Source: Tubiluchus corallicola (Eukaryota; Priapulida; Priapulimorpha; Priapulimorphida; Tubiluchidae). From it: a stretch of 64,000 bases of DNA. The translations under genes were made by a program, and so were the position numbers. Positions 17,626 to 48,115 of the stretch are shown here, piece after piece; within the stretch, counting starts at the first letter, position 1; each line of letters begins with the position of its first letter. The notes beneath the pieces are model-generated. The model ran no database searches. It saw only the letters and a list, made by a program, of their open reading frames with translations, and was not told the origin of the DNA. The stretch covers positions 62,001 through 126,000 of the forward strand of contig JAQGDQ010000576.1 in NCBI GenBank assembly GCA_030141605.1. The letters run 5' to 3'.

Positions 17626-17639
17626 CTCAGTGCTAATTA

Positions 17640-17780
17640 CTACGTGCATGTCTGTTCTGTGCCATTTAGAGCTGCCCAATCAGGAAACGTGTTCCAGTCA
17701 AAAACAAAGTATCCATAACTGCTTGCAATGACAGTAACGATTAAACAGCAGACAACGTTCATTACTAATCCAGCTTTTGC
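17640..17780 (-). CDS. SLC13: SLC13 gene 1 exon 15 (stop)
   Basis: Reads [20 protein letters not shown] then [18 protein letters not shown] and stops at TAG (17640-17642). 'KAG' and 'F.....FP.WA' are standard at the SLC13 C-terminus. DNA is essentially identical to gene 2 up to the last ~12 codons, where it changes abruptly. Confidence 0.92.
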   Translation of the reverse strand, partial: AKAGLVMNVVCCLIVTVIASSYGYFVFDWNTFPDWAALNGTEQTCT

Positions 17781-20700
17781 CTGAAACGAAAACAATTTTG
17801 TATTACAGAGATATCACTGCACACGTGCATTTAACGTGTTTCAAGGGAACTGTGCTGTGTGTATGTTAGATAGATTGCTCCTTTACTGTTGCTTTATTGT
17901 GTTGTTCATAAACTGCACCATTTGGCAAGGACATAATATTATTATTTATAGTTAAACACTGCAGCTTTATTAAAACTTTTTATTTACATAGTTAAAAAAT
18001 CGTGTCACACGTTTCTACATGATTTTTTAACTATGTATGTGACGTGTTCTTATCTATGGTTTATATTTTAATGTTTGTGCTCACTAAGGTTTCCCCTCAC
18101 TGTTTTTAGCGGGCAAGCCAAGAGGCGTTATATACTCTGAGCTCTGGACATTAAAAGCAAATCATAAAGCTGAAATCGATGCGTTTCAAAGGCGAAATTA
18201 CAGAAACATTTTGGGTATGATGGCCAAAGAAAATTTCAAACAAAGATCTATATGAAAAAATAAAAGAAGAACCTTGGACAAGAAAAATAAAAAGACGACG
18301 TTTAAGATGGATTGGGCACATGCTTAGACTACCTGATGATGTTCCAGTGAAGATAGCTCTTCAACAAGATATAGAACCAGCTAAAAAACCTGCAGGAGGA
18401 CAAATGCTAACATATTTAGATTTTGCACAAGAAAGATTTAAACACTTCAGCATTGATCCTTAGAAACAAATGCACTTGGGCCATTGCTGGCGAGCAGGGA
18501 GTCCTGGCATAGGGAGGTGAGCAGAATCATGTCCCTGGACGTTTGATTCAGTGAAGAAGAAGAGGCGTTACATCCTCTAGACTTATCATGGCAGCAGTCT
18601 TTGTGAATAAACAGATTAATAAGGAAGAAAGATTTATGTTAAATGTTCTATAAGGTTTCTAACAAAGTTACAAATGTTGTCGAGACGTTACAATGTAAAT
18701 TAAAAGTTTTGATAAAGTTGTGGATATTTTAACTATAAATATTTTAAGTGCTTGTAATGATAAAACTGACTAGTAATACAAGAATAGCTACAGACAAAAA
18801 GAATGCAATAACACAAGTGTGATAAACAGGTTGACTGCAAAAACACAAAGTCATTTCTACGCAACACTTAAAGGACAAGAAAAGGGGTACTGGAAGCATT
18901 CAGAAAAAGCCACTTAAAAAATTATGTTACTTGCGTAAACATTATGTACTCGCGTTAAAAAGAATTTTTGTTTGTTTCCATTTTAAATCTTCCGCAATAC
19001 TGTTCCGATGGCGCCATTACATGACGTCATATACGCACAATGTAAATCAGGGGAAGAAAAGAGAATATTAAACTATGTCCCAAAAAATTTCCATGCAAAT
19101 CTATGTTACTTAGCACTTCACTTACCTACTGAAAAGACTTACGTAACTAGAAATAATAATTTAAAATGTTTGTGCTAATTAGTAAAATGTAGCTGACTCA
19201 CCCTCCAGGGTGTGCCACTCACTAACCAAAAACGTATTTTCAATCTTATTGACAAGATACAGTAATTTAAAATCTTACTTAGTTAATAACATGTGCACTA
19301 CGAATGCTCTGATTATTTCTTCAAACTTCATGTAATGTTATTTAATCTTGTGTCAAACAAGCTACCATTAAAATGGCGGCGTCTAATGTTCATCACGAGA
19401 GTTTAAATTTACAAGTTTTATACAGAGATGCTGCTGAAGCAAGCCCTGCGTGCAAAAAGGCATCATGTAAGTGGTATAAAATTTAAATAAGAATGTTTAA
19501 GTTTTATGTAAGTGGAGGATTTTCGAGTGCTGTACAGCACATGCCGCTTACAGCGTTAATTTAGTGCTGAACTATGAGATGCACATATAATATTGTTTAA
19601 CTACATACCATGTCTGAAATCCTTAATGTCCCGTAAGAAAACACAACAGCATTTGGTGGAGTTGCTACGGGCAACATGAAGGCGAACGAAGCTGCAATTA
19701 CCGCTGGATACAGGAAATAGTAGGGATGAACTCGTAGAGCAGACGACTGTTAAACAAAATAAAAACTTTGTTAGTTTTACTAATTAGATTATTAGTGTCA
19801 AGAATGTTCAGAAATCATTGAAGTTTATTTCACGACAATTATTACCCATTGCGCATAATGAGGCGAAGAAAGAAAGAAGACGTTGAAAAATGGTGTGCTA
19901 CAAGGATGAATTCTTGGGCCTGCTCTGTCACGTTAAACTGGTAACTCAGGTAGCAGAGTTGATGAAAGAAAGAAGACGTTGAAAAATGGTGTGCTACAAG
20001 GATGAATTCTTGGGCCTGCTCTGTCACGTTAAACTGGTAACTCAGGTAGCAGAGTTGATGAAAGAAAGAAGACGATGAAAAATGGTGTGCTACAAGGATG
20101 AAATCTTGGGCCTGCTCTGTCATGTTGAACTGGTAGCTCAGGTAGCAGAGTTGATTGTGTTAGTAAGTCAATGTGAAAATAAGCAGTGCTTCTTGTGAGA
20201 AACATAACAATGAAATGCCAAATTTACTCGGGTAATTGATGTCCTCACTCAAACAAGAACATGAATTTATTCAAATCTGGCGTCAATTACTGAATTGAGA
20301 GCACTAGTACAAAAATCAGTTGAACAGTAATCTAGTTTTTGATTTTTGCACCAGCTTTGTATCACAGTATCGATTCCGAGCAACAGGAGTTACTCAGCTT
20401 TAGGATCAAGTTACTTGCAAGTTACTCAGGCTAAGCAACAAGTCATTCGATTCAAATACCTAGTTACTGCATTTGAGCACAAAATTACTTAATATTAGTA
20501 GCAATTTACTCCTTTTCAGTATCGAGTTACTTAATTTGAGCTTCGAGTTACTCTGTTTAAGCACCATGTCATTACATTTGCGCATCGAGTTACAGTGAAC
20601 TCTGCACAATATGGTTCTGTGTAATTCGGAATATCGTTCAATTTAGTAGAACGGATTTGTTTCTACATATCTCAATGCTTAAAGCAATTGCAAAACTAGG

Positions 20701-23393
20701 TACTTTTATCTTGGTATGCTGCTGATTTTGGCATATTTTAGGGGAAGAGTTTAAAGCAAAACCGGATCCAATCTTAAACTGCAGGTCAAAACAATCTACT
20801 CTTTAAAATACTGATAGGAAACATACTATTTTTTCAAAAATGACTTACGTGAAAGAATTATTAACACATAAACACAATTTCACGTTCGCGCCACTAGTTC
20901 TTCGCTGTTACATACATTTCGCCATTCAGTAGTTAGACAGGCACTAGCGCCTGCATTTTGAAAATTCATTGCACAAAAAACAGGTGTTGTATCTCTCAGT
21001 TCAGATGTGTTAGTTTCTGTCCAACTAAACACGTTCAACAGCTCGTGTGTGAGCACAGCGCTTGGTAAATTTGAAGTTTCATTTTAAAACTTGCCTAGTT
21101 TTAGTGCAACAAGCTGAATCTCTTACAGTAGCACTACACTTTTCTCTTTTACAAACATGTGCAACACGCTCGTTGAATATTTTTGCAGTTGAACATCATG
21201 TTAGTTTGTGATGTCACACTAGTTGGGCTCGCCAGCCTTTAACCCTTTCATACCCGTTGTATCCCATAAGATACAAGAATATTTTCTGCCTTTAAAATTA
21301 ATAAAATTTTAAAACTGACAGTTACTTGATCTGTTAATAGTTATTTTGATTTAAGCCAATAATAATAGACTAAAAATGGTGACAAAATGGCAAACTAGAA
21401 AATCTACATAGCATAAAAAACTGCGCAAGGTATAGTACTTTAGAGACGACTTTGTACAGATCAGTATAGCATGCATACTAAATGTCTTAAATACTTTAAA
21501 AAATTATCAGCAGTTGCAAAATGAAGCAAATTTTATGCTTCCACTGAATCCCAATGTATCCCGTGGGATACAGGCTATATTTAGCACGCGGGCACAGGTA
21601 GAAAAAAATAATTATTATGTGTAAACAAGATGGACATACTGAACAAAAGTACCAAGCCAAAAAAAATTTTTCTTATTAAAAAATAATTTGGTGATTGAAA
21701 AACATTCGGTAAACAAACCAATACTACAGCGCTTTTATGCACGAGGCAGGTGTCAATTACTGTATGTCAATTAATAGTCAAATTTATATTGCATTGGTTC
21801 ACCAAATTACTTAATATGAATATGTGTGGAAGTTGGAATTGTACATTATAATTAGGTGCTGCCATCTATGGGCTACTCCTGTTACATTCTACCAGCCGAC
21901 TTACCCCCAGTATAATTGTATGGTCAAGTGAATGCATATTCACTGGTTCTCTCCCTAATGGTTGTTGTGAAGCCTGTGTAAATCTGCATAGGTCACCTAT
22001 ACCTATATATACTGACTGTTTTTGCTTTCTAGTCACTCTCACTCTCAGTGTTCAGTGCAGCAGTCATGCTACTCATGTGTCTTTACTTTAATAAACACTT
22101 TTCTGTTGTGTGCAGTGCAAATATGTATTATAGATTTTTTATTCTTGTTCAGACTGCTGTGCCTAAACTCAATCATAACAAAGTGAGTGATCAACAACTT
22201 CAAACATGACTTTCACAATATGAGTTTACCCCTTTTGAGCATCAAGTTACTCAGTCTTAACATCAAATTACTTGGTTTGGGTATCAAATTTCTCAATTTA
22301 ACAATATGAAGAGAAAGTAGCCAATTCTGCACATTAACCTACTTAATTACATTGCCATATGACCTAATCAGAGATAATCTGGGTCAACAGTTCTGATTTT
22401 AATAATGAAACCAGGTTACTTAATCATAAAATACTGAATTTTCACAACCACGAAGACAGTGATATGAACATACTGATGATGGCAACAATAATGATAACAA
22501 ATACTATAATCACTGATTTAGAACACCCTGTACCATGCATGTTTATGTAACGACAACGGCAATAAACTTACCAGATCAGCTAGTATAGGAATCATGATGG
22601 TGGCAACGGCTGGATTGCTGGCAAATTCGGTCAGTGTAGCAACGACGACGCACAGTATGAGAACAATGAAAAATGGCGGCACCGGGTCCAGAGAACAAAG
22701 AATAGAACTGATTTCCTTAGACAGACCAGATTTCTGGAAAAAAATATTGACTGAATTCGAGAAATTAAAGTACAAAAACAGCGCATACATACACGATATA
22801 CCAACATACATACATACATATATGCAGACATACATACACGCTACACACACACACACGCATGCACGCACATACATACATACATACACGCTATACCAACATA
22901 CATACATACATATATGCAGACATACATACATGCTACACACACACACACACGCACGCACGCACATACATACATACATACACGCTATACCAACATACATACA
23001 TACATATATGCAGACATACATACATGCTACACACACACACACACGCACACACATACATACATACATACATACACGCTATACCAACATACATACATACATA
23101 TATGCAGACATACATACATGCTACACACACACATGCATGCACACACATACACACACGCACACATACACATGCTATACACACATATATGCAGACATACATA
23201 CATGCTACACACACACACACACACACACACATACATACATACATACATACACGCTATACCAACATACATACATACATATATGCAGACATACATACATGCT
23301 ACACACACACACGCACGCACACACATACACACACGCACACATACACATGCTATACACACATATATGCAGACATACATACATGCTACACGCACG

Positions 23394-23460
<67 letters not shown>

Positions 23461-26400
23461 GGGCAAAATGAAAAGCAGACAGGGAAGTAATACATGAAAG
23501 TAAATGGATTTCCGCCATGTTCATTAGTATTGTGTGTAATTAATTTATCAAATTTTGTAAAAATATGAATTACTTGACACATTTGGACAGAACTTTTGCT
23601 GCAAAATCACCAGAATTCAACTACGACAACCACTAATAACTAATAAACGACTACAGTTTATGTTCAACGTAAGAAGCCATGAGATGAAGAAACACCCGAA
23701 AAATTGCGACACATTTTAGATTTGAACCCACGACCTTGTGAGTAAAACTTGCACGCTCTACTATCGAGAATAAAACCCTACCTGAATTCTCATCCTTACA
23801 ATACGCAACCAAAACAGCGTAATTGCGAAATTGTCCGTAAATTTCCATACCATTTGGTGGACTACTCATACTCAATACAAATTATCATGGATGGAGATTC
23901 CAATTTCACTTAGTGACTATTAACTCAAAGTTTATGAAAACTTCAACAAAAATGTGCAAGATTTTCTTTACCTGAACGCCAGCAGCCAATGCAAAGCCTC
24001 CGCCCAATAAGAAGAAGACGCCCCAGGGTAAGTTTTTGTGAACGGTCTCCCAGCCTATTAATCTCTTTCTTGGTGTTTTTGACTTGGTACCTGAAAATAA
24101 ATAAGATTTCAGCGCTAGGAATGAAATGGTAAAGACAGTACTTTATAGCCATGACAGCACAGTTAAGAGAGCAGTCATGTGTAGAGTCCAAAGCCACGCC
24201 ATTTCAGGCTGAGCTCCACTCGGTTTATTTCTACAGCCGATCTAGCCAATAAGAAACCCAGCTTTAGTCGTGCCAGCCGCTCAGTAATGGGAGTCGAGCT
24301 AGCGAAGATTTTCGCTCTTGTGAAAATCACGTGACACTACAAATCACTGAGTGAAATATGGCAAATGCATCGCAGATTCACCCCGGATTGTGAGTGTTGC
24401 TAGCAGAGATACTAAACTTTAACTATCTTTGAACGAGAGCGCTGTTCAATTCAAAATTGAGTAGTAAATGTAGTAGCAACTGACTCAGCTTCAGCTGAGC
24501 TAGCTGATTTACAGTGTGAGTCAGCTGATGTTGTGGCAACTGACTCAGCTTTAGCCGAGTTAGCTGATTTATTGTGTGAGTCAACTGATGTAGTAGCAAC
24601 TCACTCAGCTTCAGGTGAGCTAGCTGATTTATTGTGTGAGTCAGCTGATGTCGTGGCAACTGACTCAGCTTCAGGTGAGCTAGCTCATTTATTGTGTGAG
24701 TCGGCTGATGTAGTAGCAACTGACTCAGCTTCAGCTGAGCTAGCTGATTTACAGTGTGAGTCAGCTGATGTAGTAGCAACTGACTCAGCTTTAGCCGAGT
24801 TAGCTGATTTATTGTGTGAGTCAACTGATGTAGTAGCAACTCACTCAGCTTCAGGTGAGCTAGCTGATTTATTGTGTGAGTCAGCTGATGTCGTGGCAAC
24901 TGACTCAGCTTCAGGTGAGCTAGCTCATTTATTGTGTGAGTCGGCTGATGTAGTAGCAACTGACTCAGCTTCAGCCGAGCTAGCTGATTTACTGTGTGAG
25001 TCAGTTGATGCAGTAGCAACTGATTCGGTTTCAGCCTCTAACCATATGACAACCAGAACCTAGCTTATCCTCCAAAATTTTACAAGGTTGCAGCCATGGA
25101 AACAATAGCAACATTAAAACTAAACCATTTATCACTCTATTTATAAAAAGATTAGTTAATTAATAGCGAAAAATAGGACACAATTTTCTAAATTTGCAAT
25201 TAGTAGTTAAACAAACTAAGATTATTAACACGAGTACATACCGTCAGATGTGTCGTCACGGCAACGGAAGCTAGGACGCTCCGCAGGACATAAAAACAAT
25301 ACCAAAACAATCAATATTGCAGCTGTGCCGTCTGTGACATACCTACATGAATGTAAGCAGATTTAGCTGTAAAAAATAAGCTAATAATAATAATAATAAT
25401 GACATTTATTTTGCATAGCATCTAAATCTATAAACAGCACAACGGACAATACACAAAGATACTTCACAAAGATATTTAAAGGTTTACAAAATTAAACAGC
25501 AATCCTACTAAATTTCATAAAACTACAAAAAGTAAATACATAAAAAACACACAGATTCATAAAATACAAGCGTACAACGACAAATCGAAATTTAATTGCT
25601 TCAAAGATTGTATGCTATTTTAAATAAGTATGTTTTAATCTGTATTTTAAAAGTGCTCGTGTTCGAGTGTGCTGATGTGGATAGGCAGGCTGTTCCACAG
25701 AACGGATCCTGCAGCAGAAAAATGACATAGTGGAACAGCGCATTGTAGGAAGTGTAGGAACCGTAAGCAAAATGTTATCATATGACCTAAGATTATACAA
25801 GGTTCACATACTCTGATTCAAAGAGATTTCCCCATCCCGACGTGAAAGATGGCGATCGTGTCAAAAATAAAATAATTAACAGGATAAAATTTGCAAGTAC
25901 AACACCTTCCGAAAACCTGCAAAACACAATAAGAAAATCGTTAAACAAAGAAAATGAAAATAAACTATTTTTTCTACATAGCTTTCCCCCACTCAAGCCA
26001 CCTGGCAATATGTATGGGAATAATGCACACAATAACTACGGCCAAATCACGTTGAAAATACCGGTTCTCGTCTGATCACCGAAGTTAAGCAATGTAGAGC
26101 CTGGTTAGTACTTGGATGGGACCGCCTAGGAATACCAGGTGCTGTAGGCTTGCTAGATGCCCACACTGTATCTCGACACTAGGCGGAGGAGCTGCACAAG
26201 CAGCCAATGGCTACAGGGCGGAGGAGGTCAAGTGACCAAACGGCCATGTGTAAAGGAGTAAACCTTCCAAATCAGGAGTGGAGCCCCGAAGGCGGACCAG
26301 TGCAGCATGTTCACTGACTCCGGCAGCTCCTGCAGCCAACCTGGTGCCAAACGTATCGCTCCGCTTTCCTTTGGACTGCACCAGGGAGGAAGAGAGGGGG

Positions 26401-29400
26401 TTCCTGTTGTCTGGGCAACTCAGGATCTCCATACACTTTGCCCAGGCGTGCTCACTGACTCTGGCAGCTCCTGCAGCCAACCTGGTGCCAAACGTATCAC
26501 TCCGCTTTCCTTTGGACTACACCAGGGAGGAAGAGAGGGGGTTCTTGTTGTCTGGGCAACTCAGGATCTCCATACACCTTGCCCATGCGTGCGCCCTGGA
26601 GACGTTCAAGGATCGCACTGCTCAGCCACAGTCGACGCTGCAGCTCCATCAATGTGATCAATAACTGACTCTCTTGACGCACACTCCATTGTCTTCCAAG
26701 ACAGAAGGATGCCAACAAATAATTATATAATACAGAGCTTGCATTTATGATACCTGGCTTAGATAAGCCTTATAAGAAGTTTATAAGTTTAGATTGAAAC
26801 AGCCGTTATCAGGTGAATTTGAATCAAGATTAACCTGCATGGAAAAATTACAGCCTGAGCAGCTCTACACAGATTTGCTCAGGTTGTGGGAACAGCAATA
26901 GATGAATCCTAGCAGCAGAGTTGAACTCATTCATGTGAATCCATGATTGAGGCCTCGTATTAATTCAAAACATTTTCTTTCCTATTCACTTTTTTATAAA
27001 CCTCAATAGTAAGATTTTCACAGTGTCTTCATAATGTAGTTAAAATTTAGATTATATATATATAATGTGGCATCAATATTCTTAAATGTTCATTTTACGT
27101 CATTTTCCTGGTTTTAATGATGGTTAAAAGATGTCAGTTCGGACTTACATAGCTAGTCGATATAAGGAAAAATGATATTTACTTCATTTCAATAGGTTAG
27201 CAAACATCTGGAAAGGTGCAAAAAATGGATAAAGGCTTGTGGACGACCACTGGTCAGCTAAATGCTGAATATATAGTTGCGTTTGTATGTTCAAAACCAA
27301 GAGACTTTGATAAACATTTTTGTTACCCGTTTGTCTTAATGCTAGGCTTACAGGGTTAGTTCTATTGCAAAAATGACAGGATTTGGCACTCGTGTTTTTG
27401 CAGTTCTTTGAAACTTTGTCGCTGCACTCCACTTAAACTGTAAAGCCACTTCTTGGGTATGTTAATTTCTTGTAAAAATAACTGCTGCCTTGCAAAATTT
27501 GTGTGTGCAAAAGTACAAGCTGTTTATCTGCCGATTAGAAATTAGTTGTTTACTAAAGAGTTGTTGTTTAAAGTAAGCCGATGTCTCGATTTCCAGAGAG
27601 TGCTGTGGAAGTTGTAACTGTATATATTTAGGTGCTGCCATCTATTGACTAATCACTTTACATTTTACTAGCTAAACTCACACGCAGTATAATTGTTCGG
27701 TCCAGTGAAATTGCATACGCACTGGATCTCTCCCTATTTTACTGTAATGGTATTTGTAAAGTTTGCATAATTACCTATACCTATATATACTGACTGGATT
27801 CTACTTCTAGTCACTGTCTCACTCTCAGTGCAGTGCAGAAGTCATGCTAGTTGTGATACTCGTGTCACTTACTGTCTAACTCTCAGTGATCAGTGCAGGA
27901 CACTCTGGTCCTCAGTGTAGCAGTCATTCTACATGTGTGTATGTAGTCTAATAAACGTTTTCAGTTTTGTGCAGATATGTAGTATAGTGTTTTATTCTTT
28001 TTCTACAAAGTGTTCAACTACAACCTCATACATGACTTTCACAAGTGCATTTACATAACAACGAAGGCGGAACGATAGACTGATACATTTGACATCAATT
28101 ACGTTTTCTAGCAACATTAAGTTATAAGAATTTTGTACTTGAATGGTCCAAGTGCATTGTACTGTTCTCTAATTGCTCTGCTGGGCGTGTTCTGCACAGG
28201 TTCATTGTCGTCGTGGCGACAACCACAAAGCTTTCTGAAAAATAACGTTTATGTTATAACTCAGTTACGTTCAACAAAGTTTTACCATCTTCGCAAACTT
28301 TTAATCTAAGAAATATCATAATGGAAATAAAAAAACAACTATGTTCTTCTTCAATATTTTGTACATTCAATTTTTTGAACTTTCGTTTATAGTTGGGTTC
28401 TGTTTCCCTTTAAGTGTGTTGTCGGTTGAAACGTTTGTCTAAAACAAAACTGGACCCAATCTTAAACAGCAGGTCAAAGCAATCTACTCTTTAAAACATT
28501 GAAAGGAAACATACTATTTTTTCAAAAAATGACTTACGTGAAAGAATTATTACCATATAAACACAAGTTAGATTAGATTTTAGATTTAGATTTACTTCGC
28601 AATAAACATATACGTATACATTACATTACATGTGCACGATAATCAGGTTTTGTTAATACAAAAATATGATACAATTCATGAATTCTGCGCGAGAGACCTA
28701 AGAAGCTAGCTTATGGTAGGCCACTAGAATTAGTTACAAAAAAATTACATTAAAAGTTTGTGTTTGAGCCACTGGTTCTTCACTGTTACATGTATTTCGC
28801 CATTCGCTAGTTAGACGGACAGTAGCGCCTGTATTTCGAAAACGCAATGTATAAAAATAGGTGCTGTAACTCTCCGTTCATGTGTTAGTTTGTGACGAAA
28901 CTGCACACGTTCGACAGCTCATGCGTGAGCACAGCCGTAAATTTGGAAATTGAATTTTTATCTTAATAAAACTTGCCTAGTTTTAGTATAGCACACTGGA
29001 TATCTGACAGTAGCACTGTACTTCAATTTTCGCTTTCGCAAACACATGGAACACGCTCGTGGAATATTTTTCCTGTTGAAAATTGTGTTAGTTTGTGATG
29101 TATTCAACCGTTGGGCTCGCCCACCGTTAATTAAGATTTTAATCTATTATTTAATTATCACAAACGCCTTTGCAGTATTAATTGTGCTAAAATGTATACT
29201 CCACTGTAAATGTAAGTAAACCTCACTTACTTGAAACCGAAGAAGTAAAACTGTAGCCACAACCAGGCAATGGTGATGCAGACTAGAGCATTGGGTAGAG
29301 CGAACAACATCCAACTTGTGAACGAAATTTCAACTCCATAAATGCTGTAACAGAAAGAGTTTTCAACTCAGAAAAAATTTGATCTTTTTACATTTCGAAC

Positions 29401-32400
29401 GACAACACATACAGCCGCAGAGTTTTGCTGAAATTATTAATCTAATTAAATTTAACATTAAAGCTATCAGGTATAAATTGTTGTCCTCATTCGACCAACT
29501 TGACATCCCAGAAAGAAGAACAAGCTAGGTAAAAATCTAGATGCAGTGCCATCTATTGAGCATCCAAAACACCTGCTTTTTTATTAGATGCAAGATCGCT
29601 AGTTGTTACATTGGATATACAGTTGACCCTCGTTAAACCGGACCCCGTTAGCCCGGATATCGGATAAGACGGACGTCATCCGTGGTAAAGGAAACTGACC
29701 GATTTCCGTCCGAGCCGTAGCGCTAAACACAACACGGCCTACCAACTCACCATGAGCCATTGACGGGCCAAAGCCATTTTTTATTTAAACTGTACAATAA
29801 TTTCTTTATCCTCACAGGCTAACTATTTTAAAGTAATATACAGTATAGTATATAGTGCTATGTATATAGGCCTTATTAAGGTGATTATTCCTGTATAATA
29901 TAGACCATGTATAGGCATATCGGATAAATTGGATAATCGGCTAAACCGGACCCCCCCCCAATTAGTCCGGTTTAAAGAGGGTTGACTGTATTGAGGCAGT
30001 GAGTGTACAAGCAAAAGTGTCACAGGTAGAACCCAACGACTAACACTTCCCATATATCATTTGATATGAACGTCTGACCCAGATTAGAACTGTCTAATTT
30101 CTACATTTCCTTAGATACCTCTAAAATGCTAGCATGCTAAACAATAAATGAACTCACGTTTCAACTTGTCCGGCTAGAATCAAATTCGGAAATGTTCCGT
30201 ACAGGGTGGCCGTTCCACCAATGTTAGCTGAGTAACAAATACACAGCAACATGGCTTTGCACATTGTACTGTTCTCAATGCCCTAATAAATATCACATTA
30301 TTATTTCCTTCCACATAATTATTATTGCATATTACATATAGCTGTTACATATTTCTTCCGTAAACCGTGAGATTAATGCGTGATAAAAACGTTTGTAAAT
30401 TTTTCGAGGAAGGCCAGGCGCAAAAATTTCCACGCACATAGATTACGCTCTAATATTTAAATCACAGCTTGGTTTGAAGCAACATGTCGACCATATTTGA
30501 AGGTAACTGCTAGTTTATAAAACCACGAACAGCTGGACAATGCCAATACATTTAGCAGTGCCAACACACGCGTCAGTGAGTAGCATTAGGATTACGATAG
30601 GATAGGTTACCAAAATTGGGATGAAATATGCGGATCAGTTCAGATAATGAAAAATTAGTAAACGCTTGCAAACTTTAGCGTTTTTATTTAGTCTATCATC
30701 TGAAAGGACCTTTCCTGAAGGGTATTATAACGGGTATGAAAGGGTTAAGATTCTTATTAGGACAGTTCTTATAAGATAGAAACGCTTTGCTTAAAGATAA
30801 AAATACTAAAAAAACCACAGAGCACTAAACAGTTTACATGTGGCATTTGTTATCCCAGCAAATCTTTAGGAAAACAAAAAATAGCAACTGACGACATCTT
30901 CGCCTAGGACCGCGTACTAGAAACATGTTTATGCAACGATAAAAATAATCACAGTGAGAAGTACATGTAGTTTAAAAATTCTCAGCCCGAATGACCTAGA
31001 TGAAAGATGAACCGTAAAGAAACTGAATTTGAAAACTTCGACAAACGTGCAACATTAGAAGTTTTATCTCCAAAACATTTAGAAGAATAAAAACCAAAAA
31101 TGTTTTAGGTTTTACGTTAAGGCCACCCCGGTAGAGAACCTTGCCCTTTGATTACAATCACATTCTAAACATTTCATACTAAATTACCTACCACACACAA
31201 ACATAAAAAAGAGGTGTATAAAATTTTCATCTTCGCAGGCTAAAAGAATCTCTAAGTTTTTTGGTAATATTTTATTTACCGTATTTTCCCATGTATAAGA
31301 GACCCTTTTTTGCTCAGAATTTTCACTTTAAAAATAGGGGGTCTCTTATACATGGGAGTAAGCCTCCGACTCCAATCTGACACCAACTGGCAAGGTAAGA
31401 AAGCCAACCCTTGGAGAAGTCTGCAGCTGGGTCCTCAAGGCATGGAATGGTGTAAAGCCAGAGGTCATTATTAAATCTTTCAAGAAGTGTGGCATCTCCA
31501 ATGCCATGGACGGCACAGAGGACAATGCCATTTTTGAGCAGAGTGACTCCTCTGATGATGAACTGGCTGGAATTGCTGAAGGTCTGACTCCAGTTGATAT
31601 TTTTGATGAGAGTGATGAGGAATTTAATGATTTCTATGATGAATAAAGTTATTCATTACCGAAAAACTTTTTTCCAGAATTTTTGCCTAAAAATTGAAGG
31701 GGTCTCTTATACACAAGGGTCTCTTATACATGGGAAAATACGGTAGTTATTTTCCGCTGTTAAATTATTCGAAAACCGTTTTCAATTGCACGTTACGAAA
31801 ACCGGATAGCAAATATTTGCGGGATAAAAACTTTTAAAACTACCGGATGATATCAGATACGAGTACCTGCAAAATTTTGAGAATATCACCATTTTTGGAC
31901 AATAAAAATAACAAATCATTATTAGTCTAGAATTGATACCATTATGTTTGTTTCATTTTACACATTAGTAAAACAATGGCTAAAAATTTTCTAAAGCAGC
32001 ATCCTCGCTAATTTTAGCTACACGCCGCCATTATTGATGACCCTTACACTTCGTCTTTTCACACCCCATCTGTAGCAGACTTAGCTCTTCTTTTGTTGTT
32101 GTTAATCTTACTTATCGTGCACGAGGCGACATCTGTGACGTGAATGTAAAGCTTTTGGTTTTGGCCAGCTTTTCTGTTTGTTACCTGCTAGTCACCTGTC
32201 TGTGATTACACACCTGTGCTCTGAACAGTCAGGTTAACCCACTTTATGGGATCTGTTGGACATTTATGTTATGTTGGACATACTGATTATGTTAATAAAG
32301 CATTCAGTGGTATTAACCTCTGTTTACAGTGTTTTCTGTGATTACACCATCTACCGTTGAATGTTATTATTATTGTTTTCTTACTTGTTTTTACAGTTAA

Positions 32401-35400
32401 TAAGACTAATAAACAAATGGTAGGGGCTAAGTGAGCGAGTGTTTGTGAGAACGTGTGTTACGTCGTCAAGGTGGGCGGGGCTAAGTGAGCGAGTGTTTGT
32501 GAGAATGTGTGTTACGTCGTCAAGGTGGGCGGGGCTAAGTGGGCGAGTGTTTGTGAGAACGTGTGTTACGTCATCAAGGTGGGCGGGGCTGGTGACAATG
32601 GGCGAGTGTTTATGAGAATGTGCGTTACGTCATCAAGGTGGGCGGGGCTACATGCTGGTGACAATGAGCGAGTGTTTGTGAGAACGTGTGTTACGTCATC
32701 AAGATGGGCGGGGCTACGTGCTGGTGACAATGAGCGAGTGTTTATGAGAATGTGTGTTACGTCATCAAGGTGGACGGGGCTACATGCTGGTGACAATGAG
32801 CGAGTGTTTACGAGAACGTGTGCTACGTCGTCAAGGTGGGCGGGGCTGGTGACAATGAGCGAGTGTTTGTGAGAACGTGTGCTACGCCGTCAAGGTGGGC
32901 GGGGCTACGTGGTGGTGACAATGAGCGAGTGTTTGTGAGAACGTGTGCTACGTCGTCAAGGTGGGCGGGGCTGGTGACAATGGGCGAGTGTTTATGAGAA
33001 TGTGCGTTATATTGAACATCACACGAGTTTGAACGTGTGAGAATCACTGAACATAATAATACAAATATTAATAAATCAATTACTTGTGTGAATCCTGGTA
33101 CAACAACGAAGTCCTGACTAGAGGATGCTTCACAAACAGCCTCTCCTGGTGGCAAGACTGCCAAACGATCCGAATTTTCTAACAATTCAATGGTGTCCCT
33201 ATGTCGTATGCTACCATTTCTGTGGAACAATATGCAAATGATTACATATAGACATAGACACAGACATAGACATAGACATAGACATAGACACAGACACAGA
33301 CATAGACATAGACATAGACATAGACATAGACATAGACATAGACATAGACATAGACATAGACATAGACATAGACATAGACATAGACATAGACATAGACATA
33401 GACATAGACATAGACATAGACATAGACATAGACATAGACATAGACATAGACACAGACATAGACATAGACATAGACATAGACATAGACATAGACATAGACA
33501 TGGACATAGACATAGACATAGACATAGACATAGACATAGACATAGACACAGACATAGACATAGACATAGACATAGACATAGACATAGACATAGACATGGA
33601 CATAGACATAGACATTTTTATTTATCTCCTCATTTACACGTGTATACAAATTGACTACTATTGTTATAGTTATTGATTAAAAAGGATAAATTAAGCATAA
33701 AGGAAAGAGTTAAGGGGGTGCAGGAGAAAGGGTAGCGAAAGACCAATTGGTCATCGAGTCAGCTACCCTTCTCAGGTTAGTGAAAATTGTAAAAAATTTG
33801 TAGTGCTGCTGTTAACATGAATTTATGGGGGGATACATTAAACATGAAAGCGAAATAACTAAATAAACTATGCAACAAAGAAATTAAATGAAAAATATGA
33901 AATGATGATTAACAAAATATGTAAAGCATTTAACTAACTGATTAAAACAAAAGCTAGAAAAAAGTCAAACCAAAAAAAAACCATAAATAATAAATCAGTG
34001 AATGAAACAAAATATGTATAATAAACTCAAACAAAATATAATGAAGCAAAGATATGCAATCGTGTCAAATTAAGCGTAATGATAAAATACTATGCAACGC
34101 AAGAACTAGTGCAGAAAAATGGAGCAAACAAAATATGTAGTGAATTTTGAGTATGTGACTAAATAGACAATATGGCTCAAAAAATATAATAAAACTTAAT
34201 GATAACTGTGAAACAATGAGCAAAATAATCATAATAAAGTGAATATATATGAAGCGAGAAGAGCATAATATGGAAGTAAAAACAGAGCAACATTAAATTC
34301 TAAACGTTAACTTAATAATTTTCATCAAAACACAAACATTAGCAGCATACCAAAGATTATGAAAGTTGTGATTTACTATAAAGTTTCTCTAAATGTTTGA
34401 TCCTGTTATATCTCTCAAAATATTATAGGTTTTGCATGTCAAATGTAGACCTACATTAACTCAAATGTAGATTTAGGTAATTCAAATGTGTGCTGGTAAC
34501 TCAAATGTAGATTTAGGTAGTTCAAATGTGTTAACAATGGTCTTAAACAATTGTAGACACGTGTCAAGTCAAAGGTGACATTTGTATCTCAAATGTGGAT
34601 AGGTGGTAAAGTTTCAGGATGTAAAATTTAATCTTCTTTAATTTCAATTTAATAATTGCTCCTAAGTTAAAATAACAACGTTATGGGCCTACTAATAGAT
34701 GCACTATCTTTGGTTTATCTTTTTCTAATTTGCACTTAAATAACTTAATTACCGATTTATTCAAAGTAATGCATCTACATTTGACTTACCTAAGTCACAT
34801 TTGAGTTACCAAAACACATTCGAAATTCCTATGTCTACATTTGACTTGCCTAAGTCACATTTGAACTTTCCTGTGTCTACATTTGACCTACCTAAGTCAC
34901 ATTTGAACTTTCCTGTGTCTACATTTGACCTACCTAAGTCACATTTGAACTTTCCTGTGTCTACATTTGACCTACCTAAGTCACATTTGAACTTTCCTGT
35001 GTCTACATTTGACGTGTAAAACCTATAGAAACTTAACTGCCACTACATAAGAGCTTAAAGCATAAGAAAAGAATCTCCATAAGTAAAGATAAAAAATTTG
35101 TCCTAACTTCTGTACCACTTACAAGCTGTCTTGTTGCATACAGAGCATGCGTTAGCACTAACTCTATATAAATCTTGTAATTTTAAACTCCCATGATGAC
35201 TGTTAGTTGCAGAAATTTTACAAGAAGTTCATATAATATTACGTTAAAACACAAGAAAACCCTTCATAAACAAAAGGTTGAAAATGCGTTTTGAAGTTTT
35301 ATACCACTTACATACTGCCTTTTTGCATGCAGAGCTTGAGTCGGCAGTAATGCTGTATAAAACTTGTACATTTAAAAAACTCACGCGATGACTGTTAGCA

Positions 35401-38400
35401 GCAGCCATTTTCACGACAGGTCATTTGAAACCAGTTTAGATAACATTTTGTAACAGCACACAAGCCACTAACTAAATAAAATTTAAAATTACTGTATCTT
35501 GTCAATAAGATTAAAATACGTTTTTTTGTTAGTGAGTGGTGGGTGAGTCAGCGACATTTTAGCAATTGGTGAAAACATTTTAAATAATTAATAATTTTCT
35601 TTTCTAGTTACATAAGTCTTTCTAGTAGGTAAGCGAAAATCTAAGTAATATACAGAGTCTTTTGAGACATAACTTAACATTGCCTTTTCTTCCCTTGATT
35701 TACGTTTGGTACATGACGTCATGTAATGGCGTCTTCGGAACAGTATTGCGGGAGATTTAAAATGAAAAGAAACTAAAATTCCTTTCAGTGCGAGTACGAT
35801 ATGTGCATAAAATTGCTGTAAAGTAACATAATTTTTCAAGGCGATTTTTCTGAAACCTACTTCAGGTACCTCTTTTCTTGTCCTTTAAACTTTAAAAAAT
35901 AGTCACAACATTCTCTGCTAACTAAACGAATGCCTAAATCACTGCATTTTGCCTATATTTAAAATTGCTTTGCATTTTCTTTTCCAGTTGCAAAAGTCTT
36001 TCGAATAGGTAAGCATAGTGCTAAGTAATATAACATTGTATGACAAGTTCTTTGTGACATACTTTAAAATTACATTTTCAAATTAAACTTTAAAATTCCA
36101 CAGCAAATAAATTTACAAAACTTGAAGCAATTTGCTGACACAGAATTCTTAGCTTGCATTTTTACATCCAACTTGCAAAACGTTCATCAGCCAAGGTTGC
36201 CCATTCTGTGAACTAGCCTTTATTCTACACGTTCACATGTGCGACATTTAAAAATGCTTAAATAAGTCATAAGTCATTTATTTCACCTTACACATTTACA
36301 ATAGTTTCATGTACAATATCTAGTGAAAGGGCCTACAATGGATATAATACAAATAAGAAATACTGCACAGGAAAAGCCTCAAACACTGTTCACTTATACA
36401 CGAAGGTAAATGTGTTGCGGGCAATCAAAAAGCAGGGCTTGTTAGATTGTCCCACACAGTGATAGAAAAAAAAGTAATGGAGATAATCTGAAAATTTAAA
36501 GTGAATCGTGATAAAAAAAACATTAGTGCTTAAAATGGAATGATGTAATGAATGAAGCTCATATATGGGATGATATAAAAGATAGAAAGACTATTATTTG
36601 TTAATAGTATGTAAAATTAAGATAACTTGATTAAGCTAACACCAAGTGTTTTGCAAATACTGTGAGGATGGATACTGATAGAAATTTTGATTCCTCACTG
36701 ATACTTACTTAAAATTTGATTTTTTTTAGCATTTTTTTAAATCTAGTAATAGATCTGCTATTTTTTGCGGATTGACAAATCTCATTCCAGACTTTTGGCC
36801 TTGATACATTATAAAATTTAGTTTTAGATAAAAAAATTAGTTTGTTCTGCATTACTGTATATGAGTTTGTGTTCCATTGCAGTTCCTAACTATTATCACG
36901 TCTGGTGATGCATCTTCTGCGAGGTTTGCTGTGATAACGTTTTCAACGGCAGGTGCAACACCCAATGTAATCTGTCCAGTGTTTTTAGCTTGCGACAAGT
37001 CATCGGAATGTGGTATTGCGGAATGAGTATCTGGTAAAAAAATATAAGCATTATGTACTACAATCAATGTCTCCCATATTCTAACAAAATATTGTAGTGT
37101 TTTATACGTCATTTCTATTGAAAAAAAATAAAAAGGCCATTTTACAAATTTGCATTCAATTCTGTAGTTCTAGACTTTACTAAACACAAACATTAAGTAA
37201 ACCTAATTTGGTAATTTTACTAATTTATACTATGTAACACGTTCTATCGAATTATAAGATTGTCATTAATTAAACTAAAATGTTCAAAGTGATCAGTTCA
37301 ATCAAAATAATATAAAATGATGTATTTACTTACATCGTACATCTCCATAAAGCAAATCTAGTATTTACCAACATATCTGACAAATTATCGCTATCATACT
37401 GTGAAAAACTATTTTAAAGAAGCCTGTTAACGTCTACCAACTAACTCACTTGTCCAGGTAGAAACAGATCTGCACAGGTGAATCACCGTGGTCACGTGAC
37501 CAACGAGATACTTAGCAAAATTCCCTACACATTATTATAGCTAGAAATGCAACACTGTAAAGTTTTTCTGTAGCTCATCTGTTTTTCCTTCTTTTTCTGA
37601 TCATTCGTGTTATTTCCATTTACTTTCTTGATTCTCTTTCTTCTTCTGTCATTCCTTTCCTTCTCCCTTCTCCCTTTTGTTTTCCCAGTTTCCCCAACAA
37701 TTTCTGTTGTTCTTCCTCTTTTTTCTCTATTTGGCACAACCACATGCTCCTTCATCTGTTCAGACCTACCAACCTCATGCAACTGCCCAGCAGGGCCGGA
37801 ACTAGATGTGGCAAGCAGGGGGGGTGCAAAAATTTTCTGGGAGGGGGCGAGGTATCCGAAGTGGTTAAATAATGGTTAAGCCAATTTTTAACCCCTTTTA
37901 TACTGCATGCAGGCCTATAATTAGCATGTGTGTAGGACGGCGTAGCGGACAGAGCAATAGTGAGAAAATTAACTCTCAGTTAACCTAACGTTATTAATGT
38001 GCCTCTAACTAAATTGTTATTTACAGAAATTTATCACACACAAGTTTTAAGAAAATAATACACTGAAGCTACCAAACATTTTTTTACCTAATTCTAATTC
38101 GTACTGAAAATGATTACATGCGAACTGCAATTTTCACTGCAAAAAAAATTATTTGTCCGATTTTGCAGGGGGGGCGCCCCCTTGCTCCCCTCTAGTTCCG
38201 CCCCTGCTGCCCAGCTTGCTGTCATTCCCTTTTCGACATCTCTTTCTTGTGTGCTTAAGAGGTTCCTCGCTGTCTTACCCGTCACTCCTTCTTCTTTCAC
38301 CTTTTTTGCTCATTTTTTATCTGCTAACTTACGTGTGGTATTTCTACCATCTCGCACCATCAGCTCTTTCAAAACAACCGACACGATGGGTACCATCAGC

Positions 38401-41400
38401 GTTGTGGTCACCATGTTACAAATCCACATGGCCACAAAGAAAGTCACAGCCATAAACCCGAGCATTAACCTACAAAATAAAGCAGCAATTGAAACAAATG
38501 AAGCCAAGTTTATGGAATAGACTAAGCTGCAATTCAAAATGTAGTCACTCCCTTTCAACTTTTAAAAAAACCGTCAGAAAAGAAATATTTCAAAAGTATT
38601 GAGAGTAACACAATTTGATAATGCTAATCACCTGCATTCTTTTTCCACAGTAATCTTAATATAACGTGACTATGCTCAACAGGTTACTGAACGCTTTATA
38701 ATCATGATCACAGTTTTTCTTAGTTCTTGCTCCATTTCATCTTTCATTCACTACTCCCCCCGCCCCACTTTTATGTATATATTATCGTTATTTCATTATT
38801 TCAATAATTAATCATTTTTTTAAGATTTCTATGTACAGTTTGGCCTGTCAAGCTATGCTTTTAGGCTCAAACTGTATGCATCAAAATTACTCTGTAATGT
38901 AATTTGCACATGTATATGCTGCATTTTGTAATTTCTGGATAATACTGCATTTATATTTATATTTACCTTAGTGAAATTATCTGTATTTTTATTATAATTG
39001 TTAGATGCAGAGTGGAAATAAATAAACTTATAGCTTATAAGTTATAAGTGCTCATAATTGTTCGACATCAATAATTAAAAATCAAATAACTTCAATGATT
39101 TACCGTGCTCAATGCAGAGGTTCTAAATGCATGGAAAGGTGGAGACTAAACATCGACACAAAAATTAGGTGCCAAAAATGAGTTGAAAATCATACCATTG
39201 TAGCTGCGATCCCACAAGCATCAAGACTCCCAGAGCTAGTCGTTTGTGCAAGTTACAGTGCTGAACAGCAACAGATAAGGTCAAACCTCCTATGAATAAG
39301 ATTTGCGTATCCTGTACAGAAAAACAGCCATCATATATCGTTCAAACTTTTTGTATAATTTAGATATTATTTTAAAGCTTTTGTGGAAGTTGGAATTGTA
39401 CATTTTAATTAGGTGCTGCCATCTATGGTCTAATCCTCTTACGTTCTACCAGCTGACTTACCCCTAGTATAATTGTATGGTCCAGTGAATGCATATTCAC
39501 AGGTCCTCTCCCTATTTTAAAGTAATGGCTGTTGTGAAGCCTGTGCAAGTCTGCATAGGTCATCTATACCTATATATACTGACTGGTTTTACTTTATAGT
39601 CACTCTCTAACTCTCAGTGTTCATTGCAGGAGTCTCTCTCACTCTCATTCTCAGTGTTCAGTGCAGCAGTCATGCTACTCATGTGTCTGTAGTTTTAATA
39701 AACACTTTTCTGTTGTGTGCAGTGCAAATATGTATTATAGATTTTTTATTCTTGTTCATACTTCTGTGCCTAAACTCAATCATAACAAAGTGAGTGATCT
39801 ACAACTTCAAACAGGTTCATCTTATTCAGATCCTAGCTGGATTCAAATGTAATATGTTTGGAAATTCCTCGGTTTTCAAACAGACTCAAGATTATGATAT
39901 TCAGTAAAATATAACCAGATAAATGCAAGCTTTTTGCCACAGGGATTACCAACTGAAGTCCATGTTACTATTAATGATGTCTGATGTAATAATGTCCATG
40001 TTGATAATGCAATAATAATGCGATTTTCTTATGACCATTACACAGCGATAACTAAATAAAATGAACTCTAGTTGAAACAATTAGCAAAAGTTGCCTGTTA
40101 TCCACCAGCTTTGTTTTGGTGGCTATCACAGGTAACCATGGTAACAGAAGTTATCATATTAAATGCAGTTAGAAAGCCTATTTCCCATGAAATTTTCTAT
40201 GTAACGATACAATTTTTTTAAAAGAGCATTTCTCATGAGCAGAACAGATAACTAGAAACCGAAACGACAAATGGCAGTTTTTACGAGGGCTATGGAGTCG
40301 GAGTCGTTGAGTTGAAGTCGGCAGTGGATTTATTGCTAAAGGAGTTGCAGCCAGAGTTGGGACTAGGGAGTACACTTATTGTTAGAGGAATCGGAGTAAA
40401 AGTCGGCTTTGGAATCCACTTATTGTTAGAGCAGTGGTTCCCAAAGTAGGGGTAAATTACCCCCCCCCCCCCCCCCGGGTAATATGGTTTTTTTGGGGGG
40501 TAACGGGCGCGCCTCTGAAAATTTTTAAAACTTCGCTCGGAATGCATTTTACGTTGTTTTCTTCTTGAAGAGACTGCCTCCGGCAGGCAATACAACAACA
40601 ACACCTGGAAATTTATTTATGTCACGAGCAAACATAAATAATTTTGCTTGCTTGTGGCATATACGTGTGTTTACTTTTTGAGTTGGAGAAGTAGTACTAG
40701 GTGGGGGTAATGGACACCACCGGGTTTCCCGATTTGGGTAACGGTCCGAGAAAGTTTGGGAACCACTGTGTTAGAGGAATTGGAGTAAAAGTCGCTAAAA
40801 AATAGACAAACTCAAACACCAGGTACTTTTAACTTTTAACACATTTATAACGTCCCATTTTGGGGCGCTTTCATATTGGTGTCTATGCAGCTAGACTGTT
40901 TTTCGAGCATAAGAAGTAGGGATGAAATGCCATTGTCATTAAATATTGAGAGTATTACAAACTGTTACTTAAAGACAGGAGTCAGAGTTGGTGTCAGGAG
41001 TTGAGTCTTCTAAAATTCTAGGAGTCCAAGTCTAGCCAGAGTCAGGAATTTAATGTACCGACTCCATAGCCCTGGTTTTTACTAGCAAAGAAATTTTACG
41101 GTCAAAATTGAGACAACGATTACATGTGATGAGCTTTTCATGTTGGTTGTGAAAAGACAGAAACCATGCAACATGTTAACCTCTCGTCTGCACGCTCATT
41201 TGTTGTTATTCATTAATACTGTTTAAGTGTGCGTTAGATTGGATGCACACTAACACCGAACATGACGAAAGTCAAAGCGAAATGAATGTTTGTAATGAAT
41301 GTTCGTTCAAATTTTCAGATTCGACTGCTAGGCCCTATTCAACCGTACCTTACCTTTATATATGCCTGTGCCACTTCTGATGCGCTCATAATTCCAAGCA

Positions 41401-47900: not shown

Positions 47901-47968
47901 CGATGACCCACAAAGTTGTTCTTCCTTTATACACTTGATAAAAATTCTATTCAATATTATATCAATCG

Positions 47969-48115
47969 CTAACCACTGCTGCATGTCTGATTGTTGCCGT
48001 CGAGTGCCGCCCAATCAGGAAACGTGTTCCAGTCAAAAACAAAGTATCCATAACTGCTTGCAATGACAGTAACGATTAAACAGCAGACAACGTTCATTAC
48101 TAATCCAGCTTTTGC
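47969..48115 (-). CDS. SLC13: SLC13 gene 2 exon 15 (stop)
   Basis: Same as gene 1 through FPDWAAL, then [10 protein letters not shown] and a TAG at 47969-47971. A truncated LINE begins about 70 bp downstream, so the 3' UTR probably includes it. Confidence 0.92.
   Translation of the reverse strand, partial: AKAGLVMNVVCCLIVTVIASSYGYFVFDWNTFPDWAALDGNNQTCSSG

Follow-up and report, generated by a model that had tools for sequence, protein, structure and literature searches.

An intact SLC13 paralogue with a one-sided change in its predicted substrate pocket, from a tandem pair in the priapulid Tubiluchus corallicola

Two neighbouring SLC13 genes lie on the minus strand of a 64-kb stretch of Tubiluchus corallicola DNA, referred to here as the window (G000:C1722:62001-126000, from an assembly of 343.5 Mb in 2344 contigs). 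The gene of interest, gene 1, was modelled by hand. It runs from 43357 down to 17640 in 15 exons and encodes 644 codons followed by a TAG stop. All 14 introns have GT-AG borders, the intron phases are consistent and there are no internal stops. A first-pass annotation of this DNA had described an intact 644-residue frame with every exon in phase, and the rebuilt model agrees with it. Stops, frameshifts and broken splice sites, the usual marks of a pseudogene, were looked for in the 15 exons and none was found.

Exons 1 (with the start codon, 43238..43357), 2 (41354..41503) and 3 (39196..39311) precede exon 4 (38333..38469), which encodes the hairpin HPin. Here motif 1 reads Cys146-Asn147-Met148, at the positions of Ser140-Asn141-Thr142 in human NaCT. 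Exons 5 (36856..37030) and 6 (33084..33219) encode a loop. Exon 7 (30158..30282) carries loop L5, which reads TLYGTFPN and has Tyr306 and Phe309 where NaCT has Thr225 and Gly228. Exons 8 (29231..29344), 9 (28139..28234), 10 (25812..25916), 11 (25242..25342) and 12 (23972..24090) lead to exon 13 (22572..22733), where hairpin HPout contains motif 2, Ser537-Asn538-Pro539 (NaCT Ser464-Asn465-Val466). Loop L10 in exon 14 (19609..19746) has an unchanged LPVATPPN, and exon 15 (17640..17780) supplies the stop codon. The peptides read earlier from exons 4, 7 and 13 are the same in this model.

Membership of gene 1 in the SLC13/DASS family is established by homology. Its product scores 283.9 bits against the Pfam profile PF00939 (cut-off 27) and 214.6 bits against TIGR00785 (cut-off 198.6), and its sequence matches the structurally solved human NaCT, NaDC1, NaDC3 and NaS1 as well as Drosophila INDY. 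Annotating it as a carrier of citrate, dicarboxylates or sulfate would nevertheless be unwarranted, because its sequence lacks the family's motif-1 signature.

Gene 2 follows the same exon plan. Exons 5 (62986..63136), 6 (60790..60943), 7 (59604..59728), 8 (58173..58286), 9 (56499..56594), 10 (54968..55072), 11 (53249..53349), 12 (52432..52550), 13 (50019..50180), 14 (49154..49291) and 15 (47969..48115, with the stop codon) are inside the window, also on the minus strand. Exons 1 to 4 are on the same contig, within the 10 kb that follow the window (L091, C1722:126001-136000), and bring the frame to a complete 645 residues. Exon 4 of gene 2 is MWISNTATTAMM, with SNT as motif 1; exon 7 gives an L5 of TLTGTIPN, and motif 2 in exon 13 is again SNT, so both SNT motifs are kept. 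The first-pass annotation had correctly read SNT in exon 13 and TLTGT in exon 7 of this gene. It had placed gene 2 10-20 kb away, which is wrong: the stop codon of gene 2 (47969) lies 4.6 kb from the start of gene 1 (43357), and the matching exons 7 and 13 of the two genes are 27-29 kb apart.

Genes 1 and 2 are 81% identical in exons 7-15 (293/362) and group together in the protein tree with 88% support. Two further copies on contig C790 have the exon plan of gene 1 wherever their exons were found. Like gene 2, they keep SNT twice and TLTGT, whereas gene 1 has CNM, SNP and TLYGT. Both members of the tandem pair carry a C-terminal N-glycosylation sequon, NGT in gene 1 (17640-17780) and NQT in gene 2 (47969-48115), with differing flanking residues.

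The silent divergence between the two genes is a mosaic. Exons 8, 14 and 15 are near-identical, with synonymous rates (dS) of 0.09, 0.18 and 0.16, whereas dS in the six remaining exons that can be compared is 0.58 to 1.95 (Fisher p = 2e-10, silent counts rounded). They fall in tracts of 605, 553 and 175 bases with 91-93% identity that include, respectively, exon 8 and intron (28754-29351 with 57690-58293), exon 14 and intron (19603-20150 with 49148-49700) and exon 15 (17632-17804 with 47968-48140). The edges of these tracts are uncertain because parts of the intron stretches also match elsewhere in the window. This pattern looks like gene conversion that has spared exons 7 and 13.

Motif columns were compared with an outside set of 84 sequences, comprising four human proteins and the best 80 of 569 prokaryotic relatives; all prokaryotic counts below refer to these best 80. 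Two patterns were used to find the relatives, which avoid HPin, L5 and HPout, while one overlaps part of L10. In motif 1, Ser is present in 78 of the 80 prokaryotic proteins, and Asn, Thr and a following Ala in all 80. The human proteins have Ser and Thr in four of four cases each, and Thr is therefore found in 84/84. Gene 1, with Cys-Asn-Met, departs from the SNT signature and retains only the Asn. In motif 2, Ser and Asn are each found in all 80 prokaryotic sequences, followed by T (62), L (11), V (3), M (3) or I (1). The third residue in the four human proteins is Val, Val, Thr or Pro, the last giving NaS1 the sequence SNP. Gene 1 keeps the Ser-Asn of this motif and has the same Pro as human NaS1. 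The L5 residue at the position of Tyr306 is Thr in the four human proteins, and Ile (44) or Val (36) in the prokaryotic ones.

Other copies in the genome provide a second comparison. Exon 4 sequences were sought with E up to 1 and the best candidates were scored, which yields 17 places: gene 1; 13 places, gene 2 among them, on contigs that carry split SLC13 genes; and three single-frame, bacterial-looking genes. Apart from gene 1, these best candidates have SNT in 16/16 cases (13/13 split, 3/3 single-frame). The 13 split places represent ten distinct peptides, one of which is repeated on three contigs and another on two. Among 13 places matching exon 13, gene 1 has SNP, the copies on C1104 and C676 have SNA, and ten have SNT, one of these being single-frame. 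Exon 7 matches 21 places. Ten of the 20 besides gene 1 were read, and each has T-x-T-G-T or T-x-T-G-S, with Thr where gene 1 has Tyr306.

From these alignments, the motif 1 change is a real loss, and among the copies read in the genome it is peculiar to gene 1, as is the L5 Tyr. Motif 2 of gene 1 is within the family's normal range, although only gene 1 has Pro among the copies read. A loss at motif 2 was considered and rejected, as its third residue differs among the four human proteins and among the best 80 prokaryotic relatives, and is Ala in the SNA copies on C1104 and C676. The first-pass annotation reported that both SNT motifs had been lost. It is true that neither reads SNT, but only motif 1 can properly be called lost, since the family does not conserve the position at which motif 2 differs. 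Nor is the change symmetric, as had been proposed; it is confined to one side of the predicted pocket, HPin and L5, and leaves motif 2 with its Ser-Asn and a sequence identical to that of human NaS1. No DASS protein of the CNM type is named in the literature found, which was covered at the level of titles and the starts of abstracts and took in few subscription papers. A scan of a viral collection returned two weak relatives, which were left unused.

The SLC13 family appears to be expanded in this assembly. Exon-4 peptides distinguish at least eleven loci, on C1722, C790, C1104, C676, C1399, C969, C949, C1787/C2138/C2264 and C1534/C2041. Two of them are paired on C790, and some contigs are apparently repeated as haplotypes. 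Single-frame DASS genes of bacterial type on C1761, C402, C188, C1997 and C1597 suggest associated bacteria or contamination.

The altered residues can be placed in the binding pocket by comparison with published work on related transporters. Citrate is hydrogen-bonded by Ser140, Thr142 and Thr240 in NaDC1, and sulfate by Ser139, Thr141, Thr259 and Ser260 in NaS1; the Na1 site is made up of backbone carbonyls, an Asn side chain (N141) and a Gly carbonyl (PMC10980263). Alanine at Ser140, Asn141, Thr142 or Asn476 lowers NaDC1 currents, those reported for S140A and T142A being citrate currents (PMC10980263). The pocket of NaCT is formed by Asn141, Thr142, Gly228, Ser464, Asn465 and Thr508 (PMC8537002). 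Changing Thr227 of human NaCT to Met abolishes citrate uptake, and a modelled steric clash is given as the explanation (PMC6063891). This site corresponds to the neighbouring L5 Thr, which gene 1 keeps.

Gene 1 retains Asn147, Gly307, Thr308, Ser537, Asn538, Ala580 and Thr581 of the pocket and differs at three positions, with Cys146 for Ser140, Met148 for Thr142 and Phe309 for Gly228 (NaCT/NaDC1 numbering). The Asn side-chain ligands of both the Na1 and Na2 sites (N147 and N538), the L5 Gly-Thr and the L10 Ala-Thr-Pro are thus all kept. Phe309 does not provide a clean contrast between the genes because gene 2 is also bulky there, with Ile. Met148 reproduces, at the same site, the Thr142Met change of human NaCT, which a patient table for SLC13A5 classes as likely pathogenic (PMC8625967) and to which a review attributes a direct effect on the binding of Na+ or citrate (PMC10890222). 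Unlike that variant, the Met of gene 1 is part of an assembled state, alongside C146, V149, Y306 and F309, in a gene that looks to be under purifying selection.

Although gene 1 shares the Ala-Ser-Asn-Pro of motif 2 with human NaS1, the resemblance does not extend to the rest of the pocket. NaS1 has SNT as motif 1, Ser260 in L5 and Asn533 in L10, where gene 1 has CNM, Phe309 and Thr581. Ser260 and Asn533 are the residues proposed to confer sulfate selectivity on NaS1 (PMC10980263), and neither the L5 Ser nor the L10 Asn is present in gene 1. Orthology with NaS1 was considered and finds no support in the tree, which does not place gene 1 with NaS1, with the reservations that support among the human branches is low and that C676 was included without exons 10-15.

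The amino-acid differences between the tandem genes were polarised wherever at least two of four paralogues set the ancestral state, over exons 2-4, 7 and 9-13. This assigns 29 changes to gene 1 and 17 to gene 2 (p = 0.10) and leaves 48 unpolarised. Seven of the 29 changes in gene 1 fall in HPin residues 138-156 (V141, A142, C146, M148, V149, T152 and L153), compared with none of the 17 in gene 2 (Fisher p = 0.036). Outside HPin the counts are 22 and 17 (p = 0.52). A similar concentration is seen at sites whose conservation among the 84 outside proteins reaches 93% or more. Gene 1 departs from 13 of 91 such sites overall, from 6 of 12 in residues 138-158 (p = 0.0015) and from 0 of 10 in L10. 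At thresholds of 80, 90 and 97%, the p-values for HPin are 0.033, 0.0065 and 0.0015. The four human proteins depart from 0, 0, 1 and 2 of the 12 conserved HPin sites. Identity to NaCT in exons 7-15 is 156/356 for gene 1 and 160/356 for gene 2, and identity to NaS1 is 145/345 for each.

Substitution rates are compatible with gene 1 having been maintained, and favour this when silent rates are held equal. In pairwise comparison with gene 2 over exons 7-15, using the first 120 bases of exon 15, dS is 0.55, the nonsynonymous rate (dN) is 0.099 and their ratio (omega) is 0.18. Leaving out exons 8, 14 and 15 raises dS to 0.89 and gives an omega of 0.17. Codon models were fitted to 333 codons of exons 2-4, 7 and 10-13, with C790A, C790B, C1104 and C676 as outgroups. 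When the two genes are given equal silent rates, omega is 0.169 for gene 1 and 0.139 for gene 2, values that do not differ significantly (p = 0.39), and a gene 1 omega of 1 is rejected at p = 2e-23. For exon 4 on its own, the same constraint gives 0.114 and again rejects omega = 1 (p = 3e-5). A single omega shared by both copies is 0.153, with a log likelihood (lnL) of -4874.70, while fixing gene 2 at omega = 1 gives -4877.51. Freeing the gene 2 branch from a single ratio yields an omega of 0.32 (p = 0.002). Polarised synonymous changes number eight in each gene. Provided that the silent sites of these neighbours clock equally, gene 1 has been under purifying selection since the duplication. 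Equal silent rates are reasonable for tandem copies, yet they are an assumption, and omega averages the whole time since duplication.

These observations lead us to favour the view, to which we assign a probability of about one half, that gene 1 encodes a transporter with altered substrate selectivity. It would have arisen by tandem duplication as an intact paralogue of gene 2, after which HPin was altered at seven polarised positions and L5, which carries Phe309, gained Tyr306. The HPin/L5 half of the pocket would then no longer act as a carboxylate clamp, and the usual handling of citrate, succinate or sulfate would not be expected of the protein. Its most likely role would be to transport another anion, such as one whose only carboxylate is gripped by the intact HPout half. 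Gene 1 is probably still Na+-binding, and elevator movement may be retained as well. The sequence points to altered substrate as the likeliest consequence of a pocket change that is one-sided. With the Asn ligands and L10 retained, a change in Na+ coupling is less favoured. A role outside transport is conceivable.

A fuller and more tentative model, which we hold to be somewhat less probable than its alternatives taken together, describes the protein as a one-sided DASS. HPout would grip both carboxylate and Na+, and HPin and L5 would now present a hydrophobic wall. Such a protein might be a carrier of monocarboxylates or bulky anions, or else a Na+-binding pseudo-transporter. In this model, which also starts from tandem duplication, conversion would have homogenised exons 8, 14 and 15 and spared the pocket exons 7 and 13.

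Several points weigh against altered selectivity in a maintained transporter. The HPin window was picked following a pointer from the first-pass annotation, and its p-values are not blind. The kept equivalent of N141 and the backbone ligands fall short of proving Na+ binding. The listing of the same Thr-to-Met change in human SLC13A5 as likely pathogenic (PMC8625967) argues by analogy for loss rather than change of function, unless it is compensated. Adaptive change in exon 4 is not demonstrated because the exon, with an omega of 0.11, has no sign of positive selection. The rate evidence also depends on its constraint. Freeing the gene 1 branch from a single ratio gives an omega of 1.24 (p = 2e-5), which reaches the upper bound of 20 without exon 4. 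A free fit gives 0.83 for gene 1 and 0.08 for gene 2 (lnL -4873.84), and omega = 1 on gene 1 has the same likelihood. Without the equal-silent-rate constraint, the omega of gene 1 cannot be distinguished from 1, a consequence of silent-site saturation in the outgroup paralogues. The dN/dS check suggested in the first-pass annotation therefore gives a divided answer, with no decay under equal silent rates (0.17, omega = 1 rejected) and a value indistinguishable from 1 when unconstrained. The fits with a high gene 1 omega do require silent branches that are about nine to eleven times unequal. Finally, gene 1 may have undergone a mild general speed-up. Its branch in the protein tree is 0.22, versus 0.13 for gene 2. 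Conserved-site departures, counted for both genes from residue 275 onward, are 8 to 5 (gene 1 to gene 2) where at least three of the four human proteins agree (p = 0.58), 5:1 where all four agree (p = 0.22), 5:2 relative to a 60% majority of the best 80 prokaryotic relatives, and 3:0 at 80% of all.

Gene 1 might instead encode a pseudo-transporter that folds, dimerises and keeps its Na+ sites but does not move substrate, acting as a binder or sensor or partnering gene 2 in a silent or regulatory capacity. Cys and Met do replace two substrate-binding hydroxyls, overall constraint is combined with change concentrated in HPin, and the human T142M listing fits a pocket that no longer works. DASS proteins are also stated to be obligate homodimers (PMC7553777). 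On the other hand, the NaS1 structures are taken to imply that protomers can work independently (PMC10980263), so that a dead partner need not regulate its companion. The strict keeping of L10, the motif-2 Ser-Asn and the Na+ ligands would also be needless in a non-transporter, and we consider this explanation rather unlikely. Less probable still is a recent loss of function, in which a long-constrained gene has lately ceased to transport and is an incipient pseudogene. Pairwise and clock-based omegas average over the time since duplication and would hide a late loss; without the clock, omega = 1 on a short gene 1 branch fits equally well, and the ATG GTG codons of M148 and V149 could stem from CpG-type changes along a presumed path. 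Gene 1 has zero stops, frameshifts and broken splice sites, however, and codon models are blind to stops. A neutral branch of the fitted length (0.27 per codon, about 0.09 per site) should have produced about six; simulation at 0.1 substitutions per site gives a mean of 6.5 and a probability of none of about 0.0005. The departures at highly conserved sites are moreover uneven between L10 and HPin, T306Y cannot arise from a Thr codon with fewer than two base changes, and omega = 1 is rejected for exon 4 under the clock.

A change in ion coupling has also been weighed, whereby gene 1 would be Na+-independent like Drosophila INDY. INDY transports citrate without Na+, has Ala171 at the site of human Thr142 and is not significantly affected by S169A (PMC8537002, PMC11782487). 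A functional Na+-independent carrier can thus tolerate variation in motif 1. The motif-1 Thr is replaced in both proteins, but motif 1 of INDY is SNA, which keeps the Ser and a small residue. INDY also has Ser at the positions of NaCT T463 and A507 (PMC8537002), whereas gene 1 has Ala at both, like human NaS1 and gene 2. Gene 1 thus has the replaced Thr of INDY and lacks its two Ser residues, and it keeps both Asn ligands of Na+. It has no Arg, Lys or His across 57 tabulated motif columns, which may or may not include the sites of LaINDY Arg159 and His392 (PMC7553777). We judge INDY-like coupling to be improbable. An assembly or base-calling artefact in exon 4 is the least credible explanation, and we give it very little weight. 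The exact exon-4 sequence of gene 1 occurs at a single place in the assembly, with no second haplotype for comparison, and a tblastn search of the window for a second or alternative exon 4 found none. Seven polarised changes fall within 13 residues, yet the frame stays open and the splice sites are intact, and exons 7 and 13 have independent changes of their own. Scattered errors would not be expected to give this pattern, which disfavours an artefact.

Altered selectivity in gene 1 would bear on a more general question. To our knowledge, the relative contributions of the two pseudo-symmetric DASS half-sites to substrate choice and Na+ coupling are not settled. Gene 1 is a natural protein with one half-site changed and the other kept, and its adjoining paralogue keeps both, so that the pair offers a natural experiment on the importance of each part of the pocket. 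If gene 1 transports, it shows how a DASS pocket behaves when the HPin hydroxyls are missing, and that compensating residues can make tolerable the Met classed as likely pathogenic in human SLC13A5. A gene 1 protein that does not transport would be a pseudo-transporter under constraint, of which we know of hardly any description in the SLC13/DASS family.

Repeats are present in the introns of both genes. Two 5S ribosomal RNA matches (95.9 and 111.3 bits in Rfam) head a repeat of about 550-690 bases with 93-96% identity, and the 5S head is absent from a third copy, about 410 bases long; the copies are at 26034-26721, 48323-48871 and 59779-60190. This intronic repeat looks like a 5S-derived element resembling a short interspersed element. 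A dispersed repeat of about 400 bases pairs 36263-36664 with 51110-51511 at 97.8% identity. By eye, a minisatellite-like array and a long (gacata)n array can be recognised in gene 1 introns (24470-25010 and 33241-33613). An open frame on the plus strand (31362-31643) has a sub-threshold match to DDE_1 (14.6 bits versus 22), and we take it to be perhaps the remnant of a pogo/Tigger-like transposon.

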